Source of the DNA: a virus
Length of the DNA stretch: 24,417 nt
IMG/VR virus record: IMGVR_UViG_3300012039_000026
Location: 1-24,417 of that record
Strand: one strand, 5' to 3'
Shown: positions 129-19,135 of the stretch, piece by piece
How the letters are laid out: each line of letters opens with the position of its first letter
How positions within the stretch are numbered: position 1 is the stretch's first letter
Notes under the pieces: model-generated
What the model saw: the letters and a program-made list of their open reading frames with translations, nothing else
What the model was told of the DNA's origin: nothing
Database searches by the model: none
Made by a program: the position numbers and the translations under genes

Positions 129-1163
129 TCACGAAAAGTGCGCCAGTGCTTCAGCAAAGCCATCCGCCGTAGGTGTGAATACCTTCGGGGTAGCCGTGCT
201 GGCACTGGACGGATTCGTGGTCCCCGCCACAGCGCGTTGTGTAATGGCGGCAACGGCCTTGGTGGTGCCCTGTTCAGTGAGTGCCGATGTTTTGGCGGTC
301 AGGAGCGTGGTATAGGCTGCGTACACGGCTGCCTGCATCTCTTCACCCGTCGCCGTGGGAGGGAGCGACGTGAGCGCCTTCCCCAGTTCCGGCTTGAGTT
401 CGTCGAAATACGGCAACTTTGACAAGGGCGCGATGACGGTCGCGGCCCATTGCGTACTCTGCTGACGGAGTTCGTTCTGGCGTTCGATCGCTTGCAGCTT
501 CTCCGCTGTATTGGCGAGCGGCTTAAACTTCTCCATCAACCGTGACTCCAACTCGGGCGCGAGTTGGTTGCGCAGCCATGCCTCCCGCTTCCGCTGCCCG
601 TCTGCGGTGTACACCGGCACTTGCGTGCCGTCCGCTAACTGGATCGCGGCATCGGGTTGGGGTTCCGGGTCAACGGCCTGTGCTTGTGCCTCCGCACCGA
701 CAAACGCACGAAGCGTCTGGGCTAGTGCAGGGTTGCTTTGGGCTACAGTCCTGATGTGCGCCTGCGCGGCGGGATCACCCGACATCGCCTGCTGCCACAA
801 CTTGAGTCCGGCACGTTCCTCCGAGGTCATCGACTGGAAGTCGCGTACCTCGGCGTATTGGGCTTCGATCTCCTGTCGGACACGCGCCGCCGTTTCCTCA
901 GCGGTCGTCTTCCGCGCATTCTCCAGGATGTCTTGCCACCGCCACGCTGGCGGCTCACCTTTGGGCTTCTCCTCCGTCGTCGCTAGGACCGGCGCCGGGA
1001 TCTCTGTCGCGGGCTGCACTATCGCGGCAGCAGTCGCCTCTCCCTCAACAGGAGCCGTAGACGTCGATACAGGTTCCGGGGTGGACGCAGGCGAGGCGTC
1101 CGCAGCACTGGCCGTTTCAAGGGCCTCACTAAACGCTGCTGTCATGTCGCCACTACCGTTCAT
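129..1163 (-). CDS. Scaffold-like head assembly protein
   Basis: This 344-aa protein has a disordered N-terminus rich in Ala, Thr, Pro and Glu (about residues 1-75), then a charged helical region rich in Glu, Ala, Gln and Arg (about 80-260), and an Ala/Thr-rich tail. This low-complexity, coiled-coil make-up and the position between portal-linked genes and the putative capsid gene fit a scaffolding protein, an internal assembly core that is removed before DNA packaging. ATG 1163 (MNGSGDMT) was chosen because purine-rich GAGAG precedes it by about 9 nt. The upstream extension is Arg/Cys-rich and reads like non-coding sequence. A second ATG at 1145 is possible. The gene lies just after a terminator, so its level relative to upstream genes may be set separately. 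No protease domain is visible. Confidence 0.65.
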   Translation of the reverse strand: MNGSGDMTAAFSEALETASAADASPASTPEPVSTSTAPVEGEATAAAIVQPATEIPAPVLATTEEKPKGEPPAWRWQDILENARKTTAEETAARVRQEIEAQYAEVRDFQSMTSEERAGLKLWQQAMSGDPAAQAHIRTVAQSNPALAQTLRAFVGAEAQAQAVDPEPQPDAAIQLADGTQVPVYTADGQRKREAWLRNQLAPELESRLMEKFKPLANTAEKLQAIERQNELRQQSTQWAATVIAPLSKLPYFDELKPELGKALTSLPPTATGEEMQAAVYAAYTTLLTAKTSALTEQGTTKAVAAITQRAVAGTTNPSSASTATPKVFTPTADGFAEALAHFS

Positions 1164-1211
1164 GTCGTTGTCTCTCTGCCGTCTCTCTCGCTGGACGGCC
1201 CGCGAATAACA

Positions 1212-1272
1212 CAAGGACAAACAAAAAGGGCGGCTGCTCCCATGACATCGCGTCATGACGAACAGACCGCCC
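1212..1272 (-). terminator. Rho-independent terminator with nested hairpin
   Basis: On the minus strand GGGCGG-T-CTG (1272-1263) pairs with CAG-CCGCCC (1236-1228), nine base pairs with one bulged T, and is followed at once by TTTTTGTTTG. Inside the loop a second perfect hairpin is present: CATGAC, 5-nt loop, GTCATG (1241-1257). The U-tract lies on the side expected for minus-strand transcripts. It sits between the small head genes and the scaffold/capsid pair, so it would end or attenuate the upstream transcript. Confidence 0.8.
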
Positions 1273-1600: not shown

Positions 1601-1959
1601 ACGATCTTCCGACACGTAATGGTCCCGGTCGCCGAGGCTTCCAACCCCGACCCATACACCGCATACGTGAACGTGTTCGCGTCCGCCCTCGAGTCCACGC
1701 GGAAATCGCCATTGAAATACGCCTGGTCTGCACCCGCAATCCGTACCAGGTTCCCGATGATCAGCCCGTGCGCCGTAGCCGTGGCCGTGGCGACGTTTGT
1801 CGCCCAAGCAATCGTGGCGCTGACGGCTGTGCCAAGTTCGCTCGTCACAATCGGCTGTACGATCGGTTTGGCCCCAACCTGGGCATTCTCCCGGCCTGCC
1901 GGTGAACCGACTGCACGATTGTCTCGGCCTCGGACGGTGCGTTGGACAACGTAGCTCAT
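1597..1959 (-). CDS. Small beta-rich structural-type protein
   Basis: This 120-aa protein starts at ATG 1959 (MSYVVQRTVRG), with GGGGAG 5 nt upstream and an ATGA overlap with the gene before it. The central and C-terminal part contains AHGLIIGNLVRIAGADQAYF, followed by NGDFRV, ANTFTY and ATGTI. This pattern recurs in phage structural proteins as a small Ig-like or beta-sandwich module. It therefore probably sits on the virion surface or at the head-tail interface, though the exact role is inferred. Its stop overlaps the start of the next gene by 4 nt, which suggests translational coupling. No signal peptide or membrane segment is present. Confidence 0.7.
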   Translation of the reverse strand: MSYVVQRTVRGRDNRAVGSPAGRENAQVGAKPIVQPIVTSELGTAVSATIAWATNVATATATAHGLIIGNLVRIAGADQAYFNGDFRVDSRADANTFTYAVYGSGLEASATGTITCRKIV

Positions 1960-2222
1960 AGACTCTCCCCGTTGAACGTCAGATACCGGCACCTACATTC
2001 AAGGGCGATATGTGACCTGGTAATTTCTCCGCGCATCCCGTCCGGCGTTCGATGATCCTCAAAGCAGGCATCGCACCGAATCAGCATCCGAAAACGCCGC
2101 TTCCTGAGCGCCTTCGCCGCGGCCCGAATCATCCTCGCGTCTTCGGCAGACAAGACTTCCGTGGGCCTGTTTAGGAGCGCCCCATCGGAATCCCTGAGTG
2201 TCATCACCCCAGCTTCGATCAC
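1956..2222 (-). CDS. Small zinc-ribbon-like phage protein
   Basis: This 88-aa basic protein carries a CDAC pair and a later CRC pair (CDACFEDHRTPDG ... LECRCRYLTFNG), with an Arg-rich helix (AAAKALRKRRFRMLIR) just before. The cysteines could bind zinc. The start was set at GTG 2222 because GTGA overlaps the previous stop; ATG 2204 (MTLRDSDG) is an alternative that would shorten it by 6 residues. The stop overlaps the next start as ATGA. No named family is recognised. Its place among head genes suggests a structural or assembly accessory, but nothing in the sequence proves it. Confidence 0.65.
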   Translation of the reverse strand: MIEAGVMTLRDSDGALLNRPTEVLSAEDARMIRAAAKALRKRRFRMLIRCDACFEDHRTPDGMRGEITRSHIALECRCRYLTFNGESL

Positions 2223-2608
2223 AGCGCAGCCACCCCGTGAATGTCGTAGCCTTTGCCGACCCAGGGGTAGTTCACCATGTAGACATCCGTCCGACCGCTG
2301 ACCATGACCCACCCGCATTGGAATGGCGTGATGTCAGACGTGACAGCCCCGACGCACCCTACCGATGCCCCCTTGACTCGAGTTGCGCGGTATTGCTCGT
2401 CGATGGCGACAAACTCTCCAACGCGCAAGTCCTCTGCGGCCTGCACGTACATGTACTCATAGCCATCTATGCCACGCGCTACTCTGGTCCCAATGGGGAC
2501 ATCCTGTTTCGCTTCAGCCTGTGTCGGTGCATGTTGAAGCCACATCGGGGCCGTAGCCGCAGCCGCCACCGCCCCTGCCGTACGCGTCAGAAATGAGCGT
2601 CTATTCAC
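2219..2608 (-). CDS. Decoration-like protein with twin-arginine leader
   Basis: This 129-aa protein begins MNRRSFLTRTAGAVAAAATA. The NRRSFLT segment fits the Tat consensus (S/T-RR-x-F-L-K) and is followed by an Ala-rich hydrophobic stretch and a polar AEAKQDVP junction near residues 31-38. The mature part (about residues 38-129) is beta-rich, with YMYVQAAEDLRVGEFVAID and TPFQCGWVMVSGRTDVYMV, resembling small capsid-decoration-type proteins encoded near capsid genes. The GTG start at 2608 is fixed by a GTGA overlap with the preceding stop and by GGTGG 4-5 nt upstream. A Tat leader on a virion-operon protein is unusual. The alternative is that the N-terminus is a coincidental RR/Ala-rich helix, but a second gene in the operon has the same feature. 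Confidence 0.7.
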   Translation of the reverse strand: MNRRSFLTRTAGAVAAAATAPMWLQHAPTQAEAKQDVPIGTRVARGIDGYEYMYVQAAEDLRVGEFVAIDEQYRATRVKGASVGCVGAVTSDITPFQCGWVMVSGRTDVYMVNYPWVGKGYDIHGVAAL

Positions 2609-3009
2609 AGATCCACCACCATGTCATCACCCATTGTCGTCCACGGCCCATCCGTCACCGTGCGTGTCGTCCACGTCAACGTCTCGCATGTCACCGTGGG
2701 GTCATTCTTCGCCGCAGATTGCCGGGACACCAGAATCCGGCCATTCTCCAAGGTCTGCGGGTCCATCGTCGCCCAGTTACTCAAGTGCTTCGACCCAGGC
2801 ACATAATGGGGCCGCAGCTCCATGCCATCCGCGGCCAGGGCCTTCTCATACTCGGACTGGCTGTAGAACTTCCTGGGTTCTCTCCAGGCGTTCTCTATCA
2901 CGAAGCCTCCCGGGACATCGTCACGCTGGATGTTGACCCGAGCCGAGCCATGCGGGCAGAACGGCCAGTCACCAACGGACAACGGCGCAGCGCACTTGCT
3001 ACAGGTCAC
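2605..3009 (-). CDS. Zinc-finger phage protein downstream of portal
   Basis: This 134-aa protein opens with a probable zinc finger, MTCSKCAAPLSVGDWPFCPH (CxxC, then CxH), followed by a body containing DDVPGGFVIENAWREPRKFY, a Ser/Tyr-rich segment and RILVSRQSAA. I recognise the arrangement as a conserved hypothetical protein often encoded near phage portal genes. Its biochemical role is unknown. GTG 3009 overlaps the portal stop as GTGA, which supports both that start and translational coupling. The C-terminus is Thr/Trp-rich (ETLTWTTRTVTDGPW). Apart from the finger, no catalytic motif is seen. Confidence 0.75.
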   Translation of the reverse strand: MTCSKCAAPLSVGDWPFCPHGSARVNIQRDDVPGGFVIENAWREPRKFYSQSEYEKALAADGMELRPHYVPGSKHLSNWATMDPQTLENGRILVSRQSAAKNDPTVTCETLTWTTRTVTDGPWTTMGDDMVVDL

Positions 3010-4946
3010 TGAATCCCAACCCCCTGCACGCCGCCCGTCTTCTCAGAGCTGTGCTGGTTAATCTTCTCGGTCACATTCGCGGACCCACCATGCCCCTGCT
3101 TGCCGCCCCCAATGATCTTGGCTTCGGCCTCTGCCTGTTCCAGCGCCACCTGTTGCGCCTGGCCCGCAATCAGGGCATCGATCGCGCCCTTGGAAATCAC
3201 GATGCCGTTCTGCGCCAGGATCTCCACGCACGCCTGCGACTGCGCCCCAACGAAATCCTCGCCCTTCATCGCAAACGAGAACTTCATCGGGTCTGGTCCC
3301 GCTTCCGGTGCCTGCGGCAGAACCAACTTCGCCGGGTCATGGCCGAGCGACCGCGCCAACCCAGCCAAGAGTTCAGCCGCGTTCACCTGGGGGTCTTTCC
3401 TCAGCAGGTTGTACTCATCCAACTTCTGCGCCCGGAACTGCGCCGCGTCCACATGCACACCCGAATCCGGCAGCATCTTGTAGAGGTAGCGCCCCCCAAT
3501 GGCCCTGAACGCCTCATAGATCTGTGCGCCATGCTGCCCGAGAATCTGCACTAGGTCATCCGCGGTAATCGTCCAGCCCACGACACAGTCAAACTTCTGC
3601 GCGGCCTTGATGTAGTACTCGCGCAGCCGATCCTTCTCCGTATCCGCTCGTGAGTTGGAATTGCCCTGCGTAATCCTGGCTTCCGTCGCCGTGGTGCGCT
3701 TGTTCTTGGACAACTGGCCCGACTGGTTGTCGGCCGTGCCCAAGGCCCCCTGCCAGTCCCGCTCCGCGTAGTCCTGGGCCGTGTAGTTGTCCCGTGGCTC
3801 CTGCCCAGGCGTCACCGACACAATCGGCGGTGGGTTCCCATTCGCCAGGCGACCCGTGTTCACCATCACGGTCTTTTCGCCGGCCTTGATCTTCTCCAGT
3901 TCCTCCGGTGGGAAGCCTTCCGGGTCGATCAGGTTGAACGTCTGCCGGCCAATACGGTTCCGCATCTGACTCGTGCGGAACTTGTTCACCTCATTGACGA
4001 GCTGTTCCCCCACCACGAGATCCGCGTCGATATAGGCCGAATCGGACATATCGCGCAGTGTCCCCACATGGATCGGGTTGCCCTGCATCGATATGGGTAG
4101 GAGCCTACCCGTATTGGGGTCGATGGCCTGGAACGGACTATCGACGTGCTTCGCCGGCACGTCATGGCCCTTCACCAACACCAGCAGCCGGTACAGCTCC
4201 GGGTTGATGATCGTCTCGTCAAAGTCTTCCGCCCGGTACCAGATGGTTGTGTACTCCACCACCCGCTCACCGTCTGCCGGTGACTCCCCCTCCGCCTGGA
4301 ACACGTTCTCATCCCGCGAGGTCGTGGTATCAAACTCCGGTGGCAGCGTAAACACCCGCTTGGCCTTCGACAGCGGCATCGTGCCGTCCACGGCCAACCA
4401 CGGCGCCCGGTCAAACTTCGTGCTGCGGAAGTCATCCGGGACAATCAACTTCTTGGGCGACACCCGCGAGAAGAACGGTTTGCCCCAGATCGCGACGTTC
4501 GTCCCCGTCACCGGGTCCACCGCCGTCCGCGCATCAAACCCGACTTCGACAATCAGCCAGCCCGAGGCGGCAATACAGTCAAACAATGTCTCGTGGATCG
4601 CGCCCTTCGCATCCGCCCCATCCGGCCCTAACAGCTGATTCAACACCTTCTGCCGCTGCGGCATGATGGCCGTGACCGGCACTTCCGGCGTCGTCGGGTC
4701 GATCGGGTGGAGTTGAATCTCCGGGGTCTGGTAGAACAGCTGCGACTTCTTCGTCTCGGTATGCCGGAAATCCAGCAGCGCATTCACGTCGTAGTTCTGC
4801 GCCTTGGACCGCCGGTACCGCTCCAACGCCGCGTCCCACCGCGGCTCATTATGCTTCCGCCGACGTCGCCCGCGCTCGAGCCGGCCTTCCCAGGCCTTGA
4901 GGTCTTCGTCAGTCAGTTCGCGAGGGGCGCCGGGTTCCCAGATCAC
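3006..4946 (-). CDS. Portal protein
   Basis: This 646-aa protein has the length and composition of a phage portal, the dodecameric ring at one head vertex through which the terminase pumps DNA. It has a charged N-terminus (about 1-60), an aromatic/Asp-rich body with WLIVEVGFDARTAVDP and RVSPKKLIVPDDFR, a central stretch with ADLVVGEQLVNEVNKFRTSQ, and a long helical C-terminal third ending in Gln/Ala/Glu-rich coils. The SQLFYQTPEIQLHP segment near the N-terminus is typical of portals that begin with a helical wing. GTG 4946 overlaps the previous stop as GTGA. The position after the terminase genes and before small head genes is standard. Confidence 0.85.
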   Translation of the reverse strand: MIWEPGAPRELTDEDLKAWEGRLERGRRRRKHNEPRWDAALERYRRSKAQNYDVNALLDFRHTETKKSQLFYQTPEIQLHPIDPTTPEVPVTAIMPQRQKVLNQLLGPDGADAKGAIHETLFDCIAASGWLIVEVGFDARTAVDPVTGTNVAIWGKPFFSRVSPKKLIVPDDFRSTKFDRAPWLAVDGTMPLSKAKRVFTLPPEFDTTTSRDENVFQAEGESPADGERVVEYTTIWYRAEDFDETIINPELYRLLVLVKGHDVPAKHVDSPFQAIDPNTGRLLPISMQGNPIHVGTLRDMSDSAYIDADLVVGEQLVNEVNKFRTSQMRNRIGRQTFNLIDPEGFPPEELEKIKAGEKTVMVNTGRLANGNPPPIVSVTPGQEPRDNYTAQDYAERDWQGALGTADNQSGQLSKNKRTTATEARITQGNSNSRADTEKDRLREYYIKAAQKFDCVVGWTITADDLVQILGQHGAQIYEAFRAIGGRYLYKMLPDSGVHVDAAQFRAQKLDEYNLLRKDPQVNAAELLAGLARSLGHDPAKLVLPQAPEAGPDPMKFSFAMKGEDFVGAQSQACVEILAQNGIVISKGAIDALIAGQAQQVALEQAEAEAKIIGGGKQGHGGSANVTEKINQHSSEKTGGVQGVGIQ

Positions 4947-5245
4947 CGCTTCACCGCCTCGGCCGCAAGCCTCATCCCGGCGGCGTGACCGCGGGCATAG
5001 CCCATCGCTTCACCCTTACGAAAGGCATGGTCGTACGTGTCTCGTATCACGTCATGCGGCCCACCACGCAACCACATATACAGGGAACAGGACCATCCGG
5101 CGATCCAATTCAACGGAATGGGCAGGCAGTACCATCTGTGCGAATAGGGCATCGCCCACGCGATCCCGAGCCAGCGAGGGATGGCCTCGCCTTCCGCAAT
5201 CGATCGCGCACTGATATAGCGCCCACACCGGAGTTCCCAGATCAT
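4943..5245 (-). CDS. Small Trp-rich probable membrane protein
   Basis: This 100-aa protein starts at ATG 5245 (MIWELRCGRYISARS) in an ATGA overlap. A hydrophobic, Trp/Tyr-rich region around residues 24-60 (WYCLPIPLNWIAGWSCSLYM) is a candidate membrane segment. It is followed by a soluble Asp/Arg/Ala-rich helix ending HAAGMRLAAEAVKR. No family is recognised. It lies between a Tat-leader Cys protein and the portal, where membrane proteins are not usual in the packaging operon. The first 12 nt after the first base of its start codon are identical to those of the portal start, so both proteins begin M-I-W-E. Confidence 0.65.
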   Translation of the reverse strand: MIWELRCGRYISARSIAEGEAIPRWLGIAWAMPYSHRWYCLPIPLNWIAGWSCSLYMWLRGGPHDVIRDTYDHAFRKGEAMGYARGHAAGMRLAAEAVKR

Positions 5246-5478
5246 ACTGGCCCCCAGAAGTGCGCCGCATGGAACACACCGCAGAGACAAGCCGTGGGCG
5301 ATGTTTGCGCCTCAGTCGTCGGAGATCCAGGAGGGAAATGAATCTGACACCGGCAGGAGACGCACACCAGTTGTCGAGCACTCATCACCATCGGCTTCTC
5401 GGCTCGCACCGCTGGAGCCACCGCGACCGTTGCCGCGCCGACCAACCCCATGCGCGAGAGAAACCTGCGACGGTTCAC
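5242..5478 (-). CDS. Cys-rich small protein with twin-arginine leader
   Basis: This 78-aa protein begins MNRRRFLSRMGLVGAATVAV, a textbook Tat signal: RRRFLS, a hydrophobic stretch, then APAVRA before EKP (likely cleavage after residue 26). The mature part of about 52 residues has CVSCRCQIHFPPG and ACLCG, so it could bind a metal. The Tat system exports folded, often metal-loaded proteins across the inner membrane, which would suit such a product. GTG 5478 overlaps the terminase-nuclease stop as GTGA, and GGGGTG lies 5 nt upstream. I do not recognise the mature domain. It is cotranscribed with the terminase and portal genes. Confidence 0.7.
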   Translation of the reverse strand: MNRRRFLSRMGLVGAATVAVAPAVRAEKPMVMSARQLVCVSCRCQIHFPPGSPTTEAQTSPTACLCGVFHAAHFWGPV

Positions 5479-6107
5479 GCTAACACCCCGCTCCCCCGCT
5501 GCGCCCGCTCATGCTGCTGACGCAACCAGGGCAGGCTATTGGGCACCAACTCTTTCTTCTCCACGAACACCGTCGGCCGCGGCCGGCTCATCGCCCCATA
5601 CCGCAACGCATCCACCGCGTGATCATCCTTGGACGAATCCAGGTCATCAGGGTCGTTCTTGTCCTGCACCATCGCCGGCAACGTGCGAATCAGATACCGG
5701 CAGCCAGGGTCGACAGTCAGCCAGGGCCCCTCACAGTCTGGATGCGTTCTCAAGAGTTCATGTACGCGCATCCACCCGAGAAATCGGTCATTGTCAGACT
5801 TCCGCACGGGTAGCTTCAGGCGCATCAACGTCTCAGCGATCGACTCGCCACGGCCGGCCCCGGTCTTTTGCCACATAGCGGGGTCGCAGGCGATGTAGCG
5901 GAGCTTCTCGAGCCCGAGTTGCTTCGTGGTGTCATGTATCTGCTTGCCTACCTGTTCTGCCGTCTGACCCTGGAACTTGTACTCACGAACGATGTGCAAC
6001 CGACCATCGGGGAGACAGAGCCACCAGAGATGCACGCCTGGGCTGTTCCATCCCCAGTCACAGGACCCGAAAGCCTCAAGGTCACGCGCACTCACGGAAC
6101 CGCCCAT
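5475..6107 (-). CDS. Large terminase, C-terminal nuclease part (separate gene)
   Basis: This 210-aa protein corresponds to the RNase H-fold nuclease half of a large terminase, which cuts concatemeric DNA at packaging start and end. Acidic motifs are visible in order: CDWGW (Asp17), YIACDPAMW (Asp75) and KDDHAVDALRYG (Asp161/162 and Asp166). The ATPase half is absent here and is encoded upstream at 6510-7412, with an HNH gene between them. ATG 6107 (MGGSVSARDLEAF) lies inside the end of the HNH gene (26-nt overlap) and just before the first nuclease beta strand. Only a weak GGAG about 13 nt upstream is seen, so translation may rely on coupling. If the gene were instead rejoined by splicing, this start would not be used. 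Confidence 0.8.
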   Translation of the reverse strand: MGGSVSARDLEAFGSCDWGWNSPGVHLWWLCLPDGRLHIVREYKFQGQTAEQVGKQIHDTTKQLGLEKLRYIACDPAMWQKTGAGRGESIAETLMRLKLPVRKSDNDRFLGWMRVHELLRTHPDCEGPWLTVDPGCRYLIRTLPAMVQDKNDPDDLDSSKDDHAVDALRYGAMSRPRPTVFVEKKELVPNSLPWLRQQHERAQRGSGVLA

Positions 6108-6510
6108 GATTCGCGAGATACTCCGCGGCTCTGAACAGCAACACTGGGTCATCGCTAAACATGCCAAGCCCGGCATTGCACTTATGGCAGAGCAGCGCCC
6201 TGACATCGCCAGTGCCGTGGTCATGGTCCACGCGCAACGTCGCCATGTTCCCCTTGCCTGCCGGCACTCGTTCACAGAGTGCGCATCTCCCGCCTTGGTC
6301 CTTTACCATCTGAAGGTACTGTTCACGGGATAGGCAATATCGATCCGCCCGGTGCTCCTCCGACTTCGTCCCTGGGTTATCGCGCCGCCATGCCGCCACC
6401 TTCGCGTTTAATCGCCCACGGTTCTTCGCGTACCACGCACGGTGATACAGGCGCAGCTTCTCTCTGTTCGCTTCACGGTACCGAGCTGCGCCAGCCTTGG
6501 TTCTCGCCAC
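6082..6510 (-). CDS. HNH (endonuclease VII-like) endonuclease inside the terminase gene
   Basis: This 142-aa protein has a basic helical N-terminus (about 1-60, YREANREKLRLYHRAW) and a treble-clef HNH domain of the T4 endonuclease VII type: CALC (76-79), RVDHDHGTG (93-101), and LLCHKCNAGLGMF (107-118). All four zinc cysteines and the DHDH catalytic core are intact. GTG 6510 overlaps the terminase ATPase stop by one base (TAGTG), with GGGAG about 11 nt upstream, and the gene ends 26 nt inside the terminase nuclease gene. Such proteins may be mobile homing endonucleases or, as known for some HNH proteins next to terminase, packaging cofactors. The gene fills nearly the whole interruption, leaving little room for a ribozyme. 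Confidence 0.85.
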   Translation of the reverse strand: MARTKAGAARYREANREKLRLYHRAWYAKNRGRLNAKVAAWRRDNPGTKSEEHRADRYCLSREQYLQMVKDQGGRCALCERVPAGKGNMATLRVDHDHGTGDVRALLCHKCNAGLGMFSDDPVLLFRAAEYLANHGRFRECA

Positions 6511-7412
6511 TAGAGAGCCAACTCCCGCACATGCCACGGCTTGCCGTCGTTCATCGCCCGCCACTCTCCGAAGAACTGTCCTTCAAAGGCTGTCCAATCC
6601 CCTTCCAACAACTGCCGTCGCCGCATCTCTGGCAGGTTCTCGAGCGTCTCCCGGTAATCCGGGTCGATATACGGGTTGTCGTCCAACCGCGCTTCGATGA
6701 AATGCCAGTGCGCCGGGTTATACTTCGGATACTTCTCCCGATCCGGGGCCTGGTCGATAAAGAAGTCCTTCACCCACAACGCCCCACGCCCACCAGGGTT
6801 ACTCGCCGTCCACACCTTCGCCCCACCACTCGCCAGCACTTCCGCCTTCGACGTCCGCGCCCGCGTCATAATCTCCAACGCCGGCCCCTCGTCAAACGTC
6901 ACCAACTCGTCAAACACGATCCGGTCATACTCCGTGCTCAAGTAGTTCTGCGCGTCTGACTCCGTCTCGCAATGCCCCGCCTGAATCAACGACCCGTTCG
7001 GGAACCGCATCAGCTTCTTCCCGTCCAGATACTCCGCCCCCAACCGCGGCGCATCCTTCAGAAACTCCCGGAGATGCGTATCCTCCAACTGCTTGTAGGT
7101 ACGACGTAGCAGCAGACACGTCAAGTCCCGCACATTCAGACAGTCCCGATACAACGCCTCCCGTAACTGCCGACTCTTCCCAGGACCAGCCGCGCCCCCG
7201 TTCAACGTGTGCTTCCATCCCGCCTGCGCCTCATGCGCCTCCACCTGCTTCGGCGTCGGCACATACCGCCACGTCCGCTTCTTACTCTTCTTCTCCATCA
7301 ACGCCGAGGCCCACGCCGACTGCCGCCGCCGACACGCCAATGACCCGCTGCACCAGTAGGCTCCTTCAGCCAGGACCAGCGGGGCCCGGCACCAACAACA
7401 GGTCGCGGTCAT
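6510..7412 (-). CDS. Large terminase, N-terminal ATPase part (separate gene)
   Basis: This 300-aa protein is the DNA-packaging motor half of a large terminase. Walker A is GGAAGPGKS (72-80), followed by LLRRTYKQLEDTHL (101-114), Walker B is RIVFDE (164-169), and a coupling-type motif TASNPGG lies at 202-208. An N-terminal Cys cluster (CCWC, then CSGSLAC, residues 5-27) suggests a zinc finger. It ends at HVRELAL after GDWTAFEGQFFGEWRAMNDG, exactly where an intact terminase would continue into the nuclease domain, which is encoded separately at 5475-6107. ATG 7412 was chosen because ATGA overlaps the previous stop. The intact family is usually about 450-550 residues; here the sum of both parts is 510. 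Confidence 0.9.
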   Translation of the reverse strand: MTATCCWCRAPLVLAEGAYWCSGSLACRRRQSAWASALMEKKSKKRTWRYVPTPKQVEAHEAQAGWKHTLNGGAAGPGKSRQLREALYRDCLNVRDLTCLLLRRTYKQLEDTHLREFLKDAPRLGAEYLDGKKLMRFPNGSLIQAGHCETESDAQNYLSTEYDRIVFDELVTFDEGPALEIMTRARTSKAEVLASGGAKVWTASNPGGRGALWVKDFFIDQAPDREKYPKYNPAHWHFIEARLDDNPYIDPDYRETLENLPEMRRRQLLEGDWTAFEGQFFGEWRAMNDGKPWHVRELAL

Positions 7413-7690
7413 CGCATGGCATGGCCGACACACCACCCGCCACAGGCCGAACATGGCGCATACGTGGCCGTAATCACCTGCTGCTCATGGTCCCAGTCCA
7501 TCGCCTGCACATACCCAATGTTGACCTTACCCAAATCTGGGTCGGTCGTATACGCTATAGGGCCAAGGCCATCGCCCCTAGGGTCCCCTGCCTGGTCCCG
7601 CGCCGAGCAGCCCCCCTCCCCCTCCCCCCGTGCTTGGCCTGGTTTCGCTCGAGTATCCATAACCTGTGTTATGCGACCCAAGATCTCCAC
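7409..7690 (-). CDS. Small Gly- and Cys-containing protein before the terminase
   Basis: This 93-aa frame (GTG 7690; ATG 7660, MDTRAKPG, is an alternative) ends in an ATGA overlap with the terminase ATPase gene. The first half is low complexity, encoded by a run of 17 G interrupted by two A (7611-7629) and reading ARGEGEGGC. The second half looks like ordinary protein, with VNIGYVQAMDWDHEQQVITA and a CSACGGWC pair that may bind zinc. No good Shine-Dalgarno is seen before either start. I recognise no family. Indels in the G run could shift the frame, so the N-terminus is uncertain while the C-terminus is firm. Confidence 0.6.
   Translation of the reverse strand: MEILGRITQVMDTRAKPGQARGEGEGGCSARDQAGDPRGDGLGPIAYTTDPDLGKVNIGYVQAMDWDHEQQVITATYAPCSACGGWCVGHAMR
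7611..7629 (-). other. G-rich tract (G6-A-G5-A-G6) on the coding strand
   Basis: The plus strand reads C6-T-C5-T-C6, so the coding strand and its mRNA carry 17 G in 19 bases. With several possible splits of the runs this could form a G-quadruplex. It lies inside the small gene upstream of the terminase ATPase. It is also a place where sequencing or replication slippage is likely. Confidence 0.6.
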
Positions 7691-18010: not shown

Positions 18011-19135
18011 TTAATACGTCACGCTCGCCTGATTCGTACAGACCGCCGTTGATTGCGCACACTGTTGATACGTGTACGATCCTGCGCCTGGGACCGTGTC
18101 AGCGGCAGACCCATCATTGGTCATCGTCGCGATCTTCACTCCATTGCGATACAGGTCCACATTGGCTGAGGTCAACCCACTCCAGACCAACTTCGTGCTT
18201 CTGACCCCGCTATCGAACGTACGTGCCGTCGCAGTCAACGTGGCCGTCGGTGGCGGTGGTGGGGGGGGCTCTCCGTCAGGCGGATACAGGAACTCAATCC
18301 CAGCGATGTCGTCCGCCGCAAGGGACCGCATCGCCTTGGAGCAGTAGGTATAGGCAGACCACATCGTTGCGGACTTGATCGTGGAATGCGACAGCCCCGC
18401 ATAGTGCCCAAACTCATGCGTGAGCACATCCTGGACATAGACCTTCAACGAGCAGGGCGTTGTGGTGGTCGCCAGGAAGGTATAGGCCCCATCCCACACG
18501 ATGATGTCGCAGTCGGTTTTCGTGTTCCCGGTCCACCAGCAGAACGTACTGGCGACAGCATCCTCGTTCGTAGGCGATGGCGTGTTCCTGAATAAGACGA
18601 TGTTTGTATAGTCCAACGCCTGCACGCTCTGGGCGGTGCGGCCCACGAACGTCATCGCGAAACTCGCATCGCTCTGGTCTGTCCAGGCACCGGCCGCGGC
18701 GATCGATTCCTGTTCTACGGTGTCAGCCGGTATGCCATCGGCGTTATCAGTGTTCAGAACCCAGAGAGAGTCACTGGGCCATGTACGCCCTGCCGTGCTG
18801 AAGTCTTCCTCTACGATCTTCACGCGCCAGCCACTCCGACCACTGGTGACCTCAACCAATGACCCAACTTCAGGCACCAACTCGTCTGACACGACCAATG
18901 TCACTCCGTCGCGTGTCCCGCCCTCCACTTGAGCCGAAACACGGCCACTCGGTAGGTCCACCTCGAGATCGGTGACGATCCGCTGGTCGCCATAGTCATT
19001 GGTGGCCCAACGAGATTGAGACTGCACAACCCGCCCGCGCTGGATGTCCTGGGAAGACACCGAAGGCACGAGCAGGCACACGGCCAGCGATATAGCACCA
19101 GCCGTGCGCACCGATCGAAGGTGGCGTTGCACCAT
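18011..19135 (-). CDS. Secreted matrixin-like zinc metalloprotease
   Basis: This 374-aa protein has a Sec-type signal peptide (RTAGAISLAVCLLVPSVSS, cleavage near residue 28), a small domain (about 30-110), and a catalytic domain with the zinc site HEFGHYAGLSH (240-250; HExxHxxGxxH). A probable Met-turn follows (SATMWS, 255-260), as does DDIAGIEFLYP (275-285), which typically closes matrixin domains. A Pro-rich linker (290-297) leads to a C-terminal Ig/FN3-like domain (298-374). All zinc ligands and the catalytic Glu241 are intact. Such proteases cut extracellular proteins and are rare in phages. ATG 19135 lacks a clear ribosome binding site. It is the first gene of the tail/fibre operon. Confidence 0.85.
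   Translation of the reverse strand: MVQRHLRSVRTAGAISLAVCLLVPSVSSQDIQRGRVVQSQSRWATNDYGDQRIVTDLEVDLPSGRVSAQVEGGTRDGVTLVVSDELVPEVGSLVEVTSGRSGWRVKIVEEDFSTAGRTWPSDSLWVLNTDNADGIPADTVEQESIAAAGAWTDQSDASFAMTFVGRTAQSVQALDYTNIVLFRNTPSPTNEDAVASTFCWWTGNTKTDCDIIVWDGAYTFLATTTTPCSLKVYVQDVLTHEFGHYAGLSHSTIKSATMWSAYTYCSKAMRSLAADDIAGIEFLYPPDGEPPPPPPPTATLTATARTFDSGVRSTKLVWSGLTSANVDLYRNGVKIATMTNDGSAADTVPGAGSYTYQQCAQSTAVCTNQASVTY

Follow-up and report, generated by a model that had tools for sequence, protein, structure and literature searches.

A putative cement-protein duplicate behind a Tat-type leader in a phage head operon, and related small genes carrying pieces of head and packaging proteins

Why should small genes that lie among the head and packaging genes of a phage encode proteins with Tat-type export leaders? 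The question is raised by two small genes, here termed Tat1 and Tat2, in the window analysed, a 24,417-base linear record of a tailed uncultured phage. A preliminary description of this DNA had given the coordinates, frames, GTG starts and four-base GTGA overlaps of both genes, and all are as described; in each frame the GTG is the first start following the preceding stop. The head genes of the window are all on the minus strand (Table 1). The portal-like gene is named from its position alone, between terminase and scaffold, and is without a family match. Homologues of the zinc-ribbon-like gene are found in the related contigs (numbered with an L) L006-L010, L015 and L016. Further small genes lie between g1956 and the scaffold-like gene. 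The MCP gene is outside the window, past the scaffold-like gene, and its start is present in the near-identical contig L003 (match L003:5907-6434).

Table 1. Features of the head and packaging region, with positions in the window.
Feature	Position	Strand	Remarks
Terminase ATPase half	6510-7454	-	phrog_979, E=6e-37
Endonuclease VII gene	6082-6564	-	Between both terminase halves
Terminase nuclease half	5475-6275	-	PF17289, E=3e-5; 43-48% identity to relatives; GTGA overlap with Tat1 start
Tat1	5242-5478	-	78 aa; marginal Tat-type leader and CxxC/CxC tail
Small gene after Tat1	4943-5245	-	ATGA overlap
Portal-like gene	3006-4946	-	30-33% identical homologues in relatives
Zinc-ribbon-like gene	2605-3009	-	Upstream of Tat2, 4-base GTGA overlap
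Tat2	2219-2608	-	129 aa; Tat-type leader and head-decoration (cement) domain
Tat2 leader, residues 1-21 (MNRRSFLTRTAGAVAAAATAP)	2546-2608	-	TIGR01409 match, residues 2-23
Tat2 cement-profile stretch, residues 22-107	2288-2545	-	hmmsearch E=3e-14
g1956, small Cys-rich gene	1956-2222	-	Downstream of Tat2, GTGA overlap
Scaffold-like gene	129-1256	-	Homologues in L006-L010; named by position just before MCP

At the amino acid level, the Tat2 leader is recognized by TIGR01409 with 26.0 bits (E=7.6e-6), which is above the curated cut-off of 16.7. A homologue of Tat2 is present in L114 (1816-2169) and also in L115, and its alignment to Tat2 starts at residue 1 (33%, E=2e-8). In the leader, over 20 codons counted from the one following the start codon, Tat2 and the L114 gene differ 5, 5 and 15 times at codon positions 1, 2 and 3, respectively, and the leader is thus under selection as protein. 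Across the wider set of leaders described below, an arginine pair consistently precedes a moderately hydrophobic stretch, an arrangement more typical of Tat than of a simple membrane anchor, and the leader probably works as a Tat signal. A possible signal peptidase site, A31-E32-A33/K34, is slightly past the leader and was read by eye. The leader pattern alone is weak evidence, since in the GC-rich related contigs it is equally common in sense (19/3938) and antisense (18/4597) open reading frames; from the codon usage of the window itself, ∼4e-4 of genes should begin with a strictly Tat-like leader. In 84 related records, few leaders score above the TIGR01409 cut-off, and therefore either the model misses many of these leaders or the leaders are weak. 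Two near-identical contigs of the same virus show zero changes in Tat1 or Tat2, which makes a dN/dS estimate impossible.

The remainder of Tat2 was described as a decoration-like beta domain, and this agrees with the cement profile. The cement profile that Tat2 matches was built from genes found just after the MCP in relatives, and the L122 cement gene by itself matches Tat2 with E=3e-10. A single-sequence AlphaFold model was unusable (pLDDT 41), and a model based on an alignment of 19 sequences was used instead; this has a confident core, with pLDDT ∼93 in residues 51-80 and 91-100. Top Foldseek matches of the model are mostly capsid decoration or head-fibre proteins, with PDB E-values of 0.008 or worse, none significant by itself, and two matches in BFVD are below 0.001, both to unnamed proteins. 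The predicted fold may thus be of the capsid decoration type. It is highly probable that Tat2 is composed of a Tat-type leader and a cement domain.

Tat2 differs from the cement genes of relatives in its location, which is upstream of the scaffold-like gene and not directly after the MCP, and the cement genes that follow the MCP have no Tat-type leader. L114 has a separate, normal cement gene after its MCP besides the Tat2 homologue, and thus the Tat-leader version there is an extra copy. The L114 protein also displays an MCP-like stretch (LETLDTTRFNVFD) ahead of the cement part. In L015, the zinc-ribbon-like gene directly adjoins the g1956 gene without Tat2 between them; accordingly, Tat2 looks like an accessory insertion.

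Tat1 presents a different picture. TIGR01409 gives it 14.8 bits when the translated protein is searched and 16.6 bits in a six-frame scan, both just under the cut-off. Thus, of the Tat-type leaders proposed in the preliminary description for both proteins, that of Tat2 stands on its score and its L114 homologue, but that of Tat1, below the cut-off and without a homologue, does not. The expected conservation of leaders in homologues is likewise seen for Tat2, in the single lineage of L114/L115, and for Tat1 only identical copies of the same virus were found; a search for Tat1 homologues gave nothing beyond these near-identical copies. The mature part of Tat1 is a CxxC/CxC peptide, as had been read. 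It has no similarity to head or packaging proteins, and Tat1 is therefore outside the class proposed below. An origin of Tat1 as a fragment of g1956 ranked first of 30 targets, but with z=2.1 and 4.4 HMM bits it is unproven; a candidate relative in L043 proved to be an antisense open reading frame and was discarded. On present evidence, Tat1 is unremarkable. Similarity to head proteins is also absent from both Tat-leader mini-genes of L140 (1782-2216 and 2213-2503) and from L123:7684-7944, the latter having CxxC pairs like Tat1. Another small Tat-leader gene near packaging genes, L181:14288-14773, has a mature part without a match.

Genes with the architecture of Tat2 but other contents are found in relatives. 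Eighty viral loci were retrieved using the MCP of relatives, and a search for MCP pieces outside MCP genes, in which no leader was required, yielded a handful of complete small genes. An MCP piece is joined to a Tat-type leader in L145, L150 (two genes in tandem), L147/L149, L099 and L008:4286, and further in L120, L185 and L183. The copied MCP positions are 3-45 (L145, L120), ∼145-200 (L150, L147, L008) and ∼235-295 (L099). The NCBI capsid model NF033394, which is independent, matches the L147 (3e-7) and L099 (1e-6) genes. A terminase-profile search gave one complete small gene, L008:4022-4270 (E=0.0025), which has a Tat leader and carries two terminase stretches in reversed order. No portal or scaffold fragments were found in small genes of the related contigs. 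The mini-genes come and go between relatives, and several are without a clear cleavage site.

MCP-like pieces without a Tat leader are found in L105:7914-8204, L105:8415-8711, L149:3569-3829 and L150:5282-5461, and thus genes with MCP pieces are not limited to Tat-tagged ones. These untagged pieces correspond to MCP positions ∼107-138 and 184-214, that of L150:5282-5461 having been recognized by eye only.

A leader-linker module is common to mini-genes of L145, L120, L140, L180, L181, L182, L183 and L185. It consists of the Tat leader and then LDxExLLWxP, which mostly continues as PxIVVPA or similar. Behind the module, the MCP N-arm is found in L145 and L120, as well as in L182 and L180 (by comparison with a distant member of the same MCP family), and by resemblance only in L181. 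L183 carries the N-arm of the BPP-1 type MCP family (phrog_212, E=1e-8), and L185 an MCP C-terminal piece (E=1e-4). The MCP families involved are therefore two and not three unrelated ones, as the MCP of L182 falls, although distantly, within the same family. Relatives of the module were not detected in 398 bacterial genomes of one phylum, in a search that had no positive control.

The association of leader and MCP piece was quantified for small open reading frames on the MCP strand, by comparison of the post-leader part, or the whole reading frame, with the same-contig MCP and with shuffled sequences. A z-score above 5 is reached by 9 of 28 Tat-like reading frames (7/26 when duplicate contigs are removed), by one of 658 other small reading frames (Fisher p=4e-10 against the Tat-like set) and by none of 34 antisense Tat-like reading frames (Fisher p=0.002). 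Because the first cases were already known when the test was devised, these values measure effect size and are not a blind replication; they apply to the MCP pieces of relatives and not to Tat2. For ten Tat mini-genes the same-contig MCP is the top match among the proteins of the contig, the second L150 mini-gene matching it after the sister mini-gene. Among all MCPs, however, a mini-gene's own MCP is usually not the best match, which rules out a recent copy from the own MCP as a general origin.

In eight of nine aligned pairs of mini-genes, most differences are at third codon positions; the other pair is a tie, and there are zero stop codons. The mini-genes therefore look like maintained proteins and not like decaying fragments, and these alignments indicate that selection acts on the proteins they encode. 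The constancy of the arginine pair is partly built in, since the pattern by which some members were identified requires RR. It is very probable that Tat-leader genes with head-protein contents form a real class.

As far as has been found, this is a recurring and apparently undescribed class. Descriptions of it were not found in databases or in the literature, the latter searched without most subscription journals, and to our knowledge there is no report of phages that copy pieces of capsid protein into separate small export-tagged genes. Among annotated phages, Tat1, Tat2, the portal-like protein and the mini-genes gave no significant match, with the exception of L183, which matches MCPs; a generic Tat leader also had no match there. 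No relative of Tat2 was found in bacterial genomes.

What might such proteins do? The explanation proposed here is that Tat2 represents a second copy of a cement protein, set behind a Tat-type leader and encoded as an accessory of the late head operon, and that it is one of a class of mini-genes in which phages fuse such a leader to part of an MCP, cement protein or terminase of their own type. Expressed with the late genes, the mini-proteins would be directed by their leader to the inner membrane or would pass through it on the Tat pathway, and at that site the head-protein part may mimic a head protein rather than serve as a virion component. Its likeliest use would be in conflict, between phage and host or between phages, as a decoy or as a means of interference. 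Taken as a whole this is, tentatively, the best explanation, with confidence somewhat short of even. The alternative in the preliminary description, an export leader taken over for another purpose, may also hold.

The conflict role is considered possible rather than probable. Known triggers of bacterial immunity include the MCP, for CapRel, Lit and PifA, and the terminase, for antiviral STAND proteins (PMC9712102). A role in conflict is favoured by the overlap between the copied proteins and these triggers, together with the patchy, accessory distribution of the genes. Perhaps membrane-targeted or exported mimics of a phage's own head and packaging proteins blunt the host immune sensors that recognize these proteins or disturb the assembly of competitors, a suggestion held with similar reserve. 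Because the own MCP is usually not the best match, the data do not point specifically to a self-directed decoy. If the mini-proteins are decoys or assembly poisons, they would add a further layer to phage conflict, one that is new, and each would indicate which region of the capsid is the target of sensing or attack. An export leader would then have been recruited repeatedly for virion proteins. The mini-genes are short, directly testable constructs.

Other explanations account for parts of these observations. An uncleaved leader may be an anchor that holds assembly at the membrane, with the head-protein part attached to the packaging machine or to heads under assembly. All of the pieces derive from proteins that contact the head or the packaging machine, and the leaders that lack a clear cleavage site would suit such a tether, but a leader with the arginine pair on the cytoplasmic side puts the C-terminal part outside, and the head-protein part would be located there. 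Patchy distribution is also difficult to reconcile with a core assembly role, and a tether is considered unlikely. Superinfection control, as suggested in the preliminary description, would have the mature part counter incoming phage from the periplasm or the cell surface, which the Tat-type leaders and the accessory, variable nature of the genes would allow. The MCP N-arm, however, normally resides in the shell or inside the head, and N-arm and terminase pieces without an evident target outside the cell fit control at the cell surface poorly; this role appears very unlikely.

It may also be asked whether the mini-genes have any function. They could be debris of recombination, short-lived fusions of fragments whose leaders are chance Arg/Ala-rich starts, and the short lengths of the pieces, the reversed order in L008:4022, the high turnover and the absence of enrichment of the leader pattern over antisense reading frames are all compatible with this. 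Yet the aligned pairs, including the Tat2 leader, show selection at the protein level, and one leader-linker module is common to phages with two MCP families, so that debris has a low probability. Tat2, on the other hand, may simply be a minor decoration protein of the virion whose N-terminus is an odd extension and not an export signal, as its cement homology, predicted fold and head-operon position would allow. This is decidedly unlikely: in relatives, the cement genes that follow the MCP lack a leader of this kind, L114 has both versions, the Tat2 leader is kept by selection, and the MCP or terminase pieces of the other members cannot form a decoration domain.

The proposed mimics can be compared with known systems. 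Residues 22-107 of Tat2 match the cement profile of relatives and place it with head decoration or cement proteins (gpD, SHP, the phi29 gp8.5 base and the Phage_cement_2 type), but Tat2 differs from these in its N-terminal Tat leader and in its gene position, between the zinc-ribbon gene and g1956 and upstream of scaffold and MCP. With Tat substrates (TIGR01409/PF10518) it shares the RRxFL motif, a short basic n-region and a moderate hydrophobic stretch; unlike these, it is phage-coded in a head operon, and its cargo is a piece of a head protein and not a cofactor enzyme. Capsid-derived restriction factors of the Fv1 type are similar in that a derivative of a capsid protein is encoded as a separate gene and possibly interferes with viruses. 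Fv1 is a host gene that acts against retroviruses, whereas the mini-genes are in phages and have a Tat leader. Tab, the tail assembly blocker of a Pseudomonas prophage, is prophage-expressed (PMC10884400). It is a phage-coded protein that acts on the virion assembly of competitors, which for the mini-proteins is a proposal; Tab concerns tail assembly, whereas the mini-proteins resemble head proteins and their genes are in the late head operon.

Several other features of these loci were observed. The large terminase is encoded by separate ATPase and nuclease genes in the window (5475-7454), L008, L013, L014 and L016, and by a single fused gene in L009, L010 and L015. Between the two halves there is an endonuclease VII gene in the window, another HNH-like gene in L014, and no gene in L008, L013 and L016; no Rfam intron was found in the window. 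L016, a contig of 6.9 kb from the bin of a Rhizobium MAG, has a terminase 65% identical to that of the window, which is either a host clue or the mark of a misbinned phage contig.

Other small proteins with signal-like starts are encoded in these head regions. L015:14530-15054 has a Sec-like signal peptide (MTRLVLLLTFVLSLCPSPVLAQ) and is located between the portal-like and zinc-ribbon genes, an interval that in this phage group also tends to receive Tat mini-genes. A family of lipoprotein-like small proteins (L112:6772-7179, L109:928-1338 and L116:7101-7511) has LLLAGC or VVPAC after a hydrophobic start. Elsewhere in the window, a matrixin-type metalloprotease with a Sec-like signal peptide is encoded at 18011-19135 on the minus strand (PF00413, E=1.5e-13), a protease predicted to be exported and carried by a phage, and its gene adjoins those of PKD-domain and beta-helix proteins.
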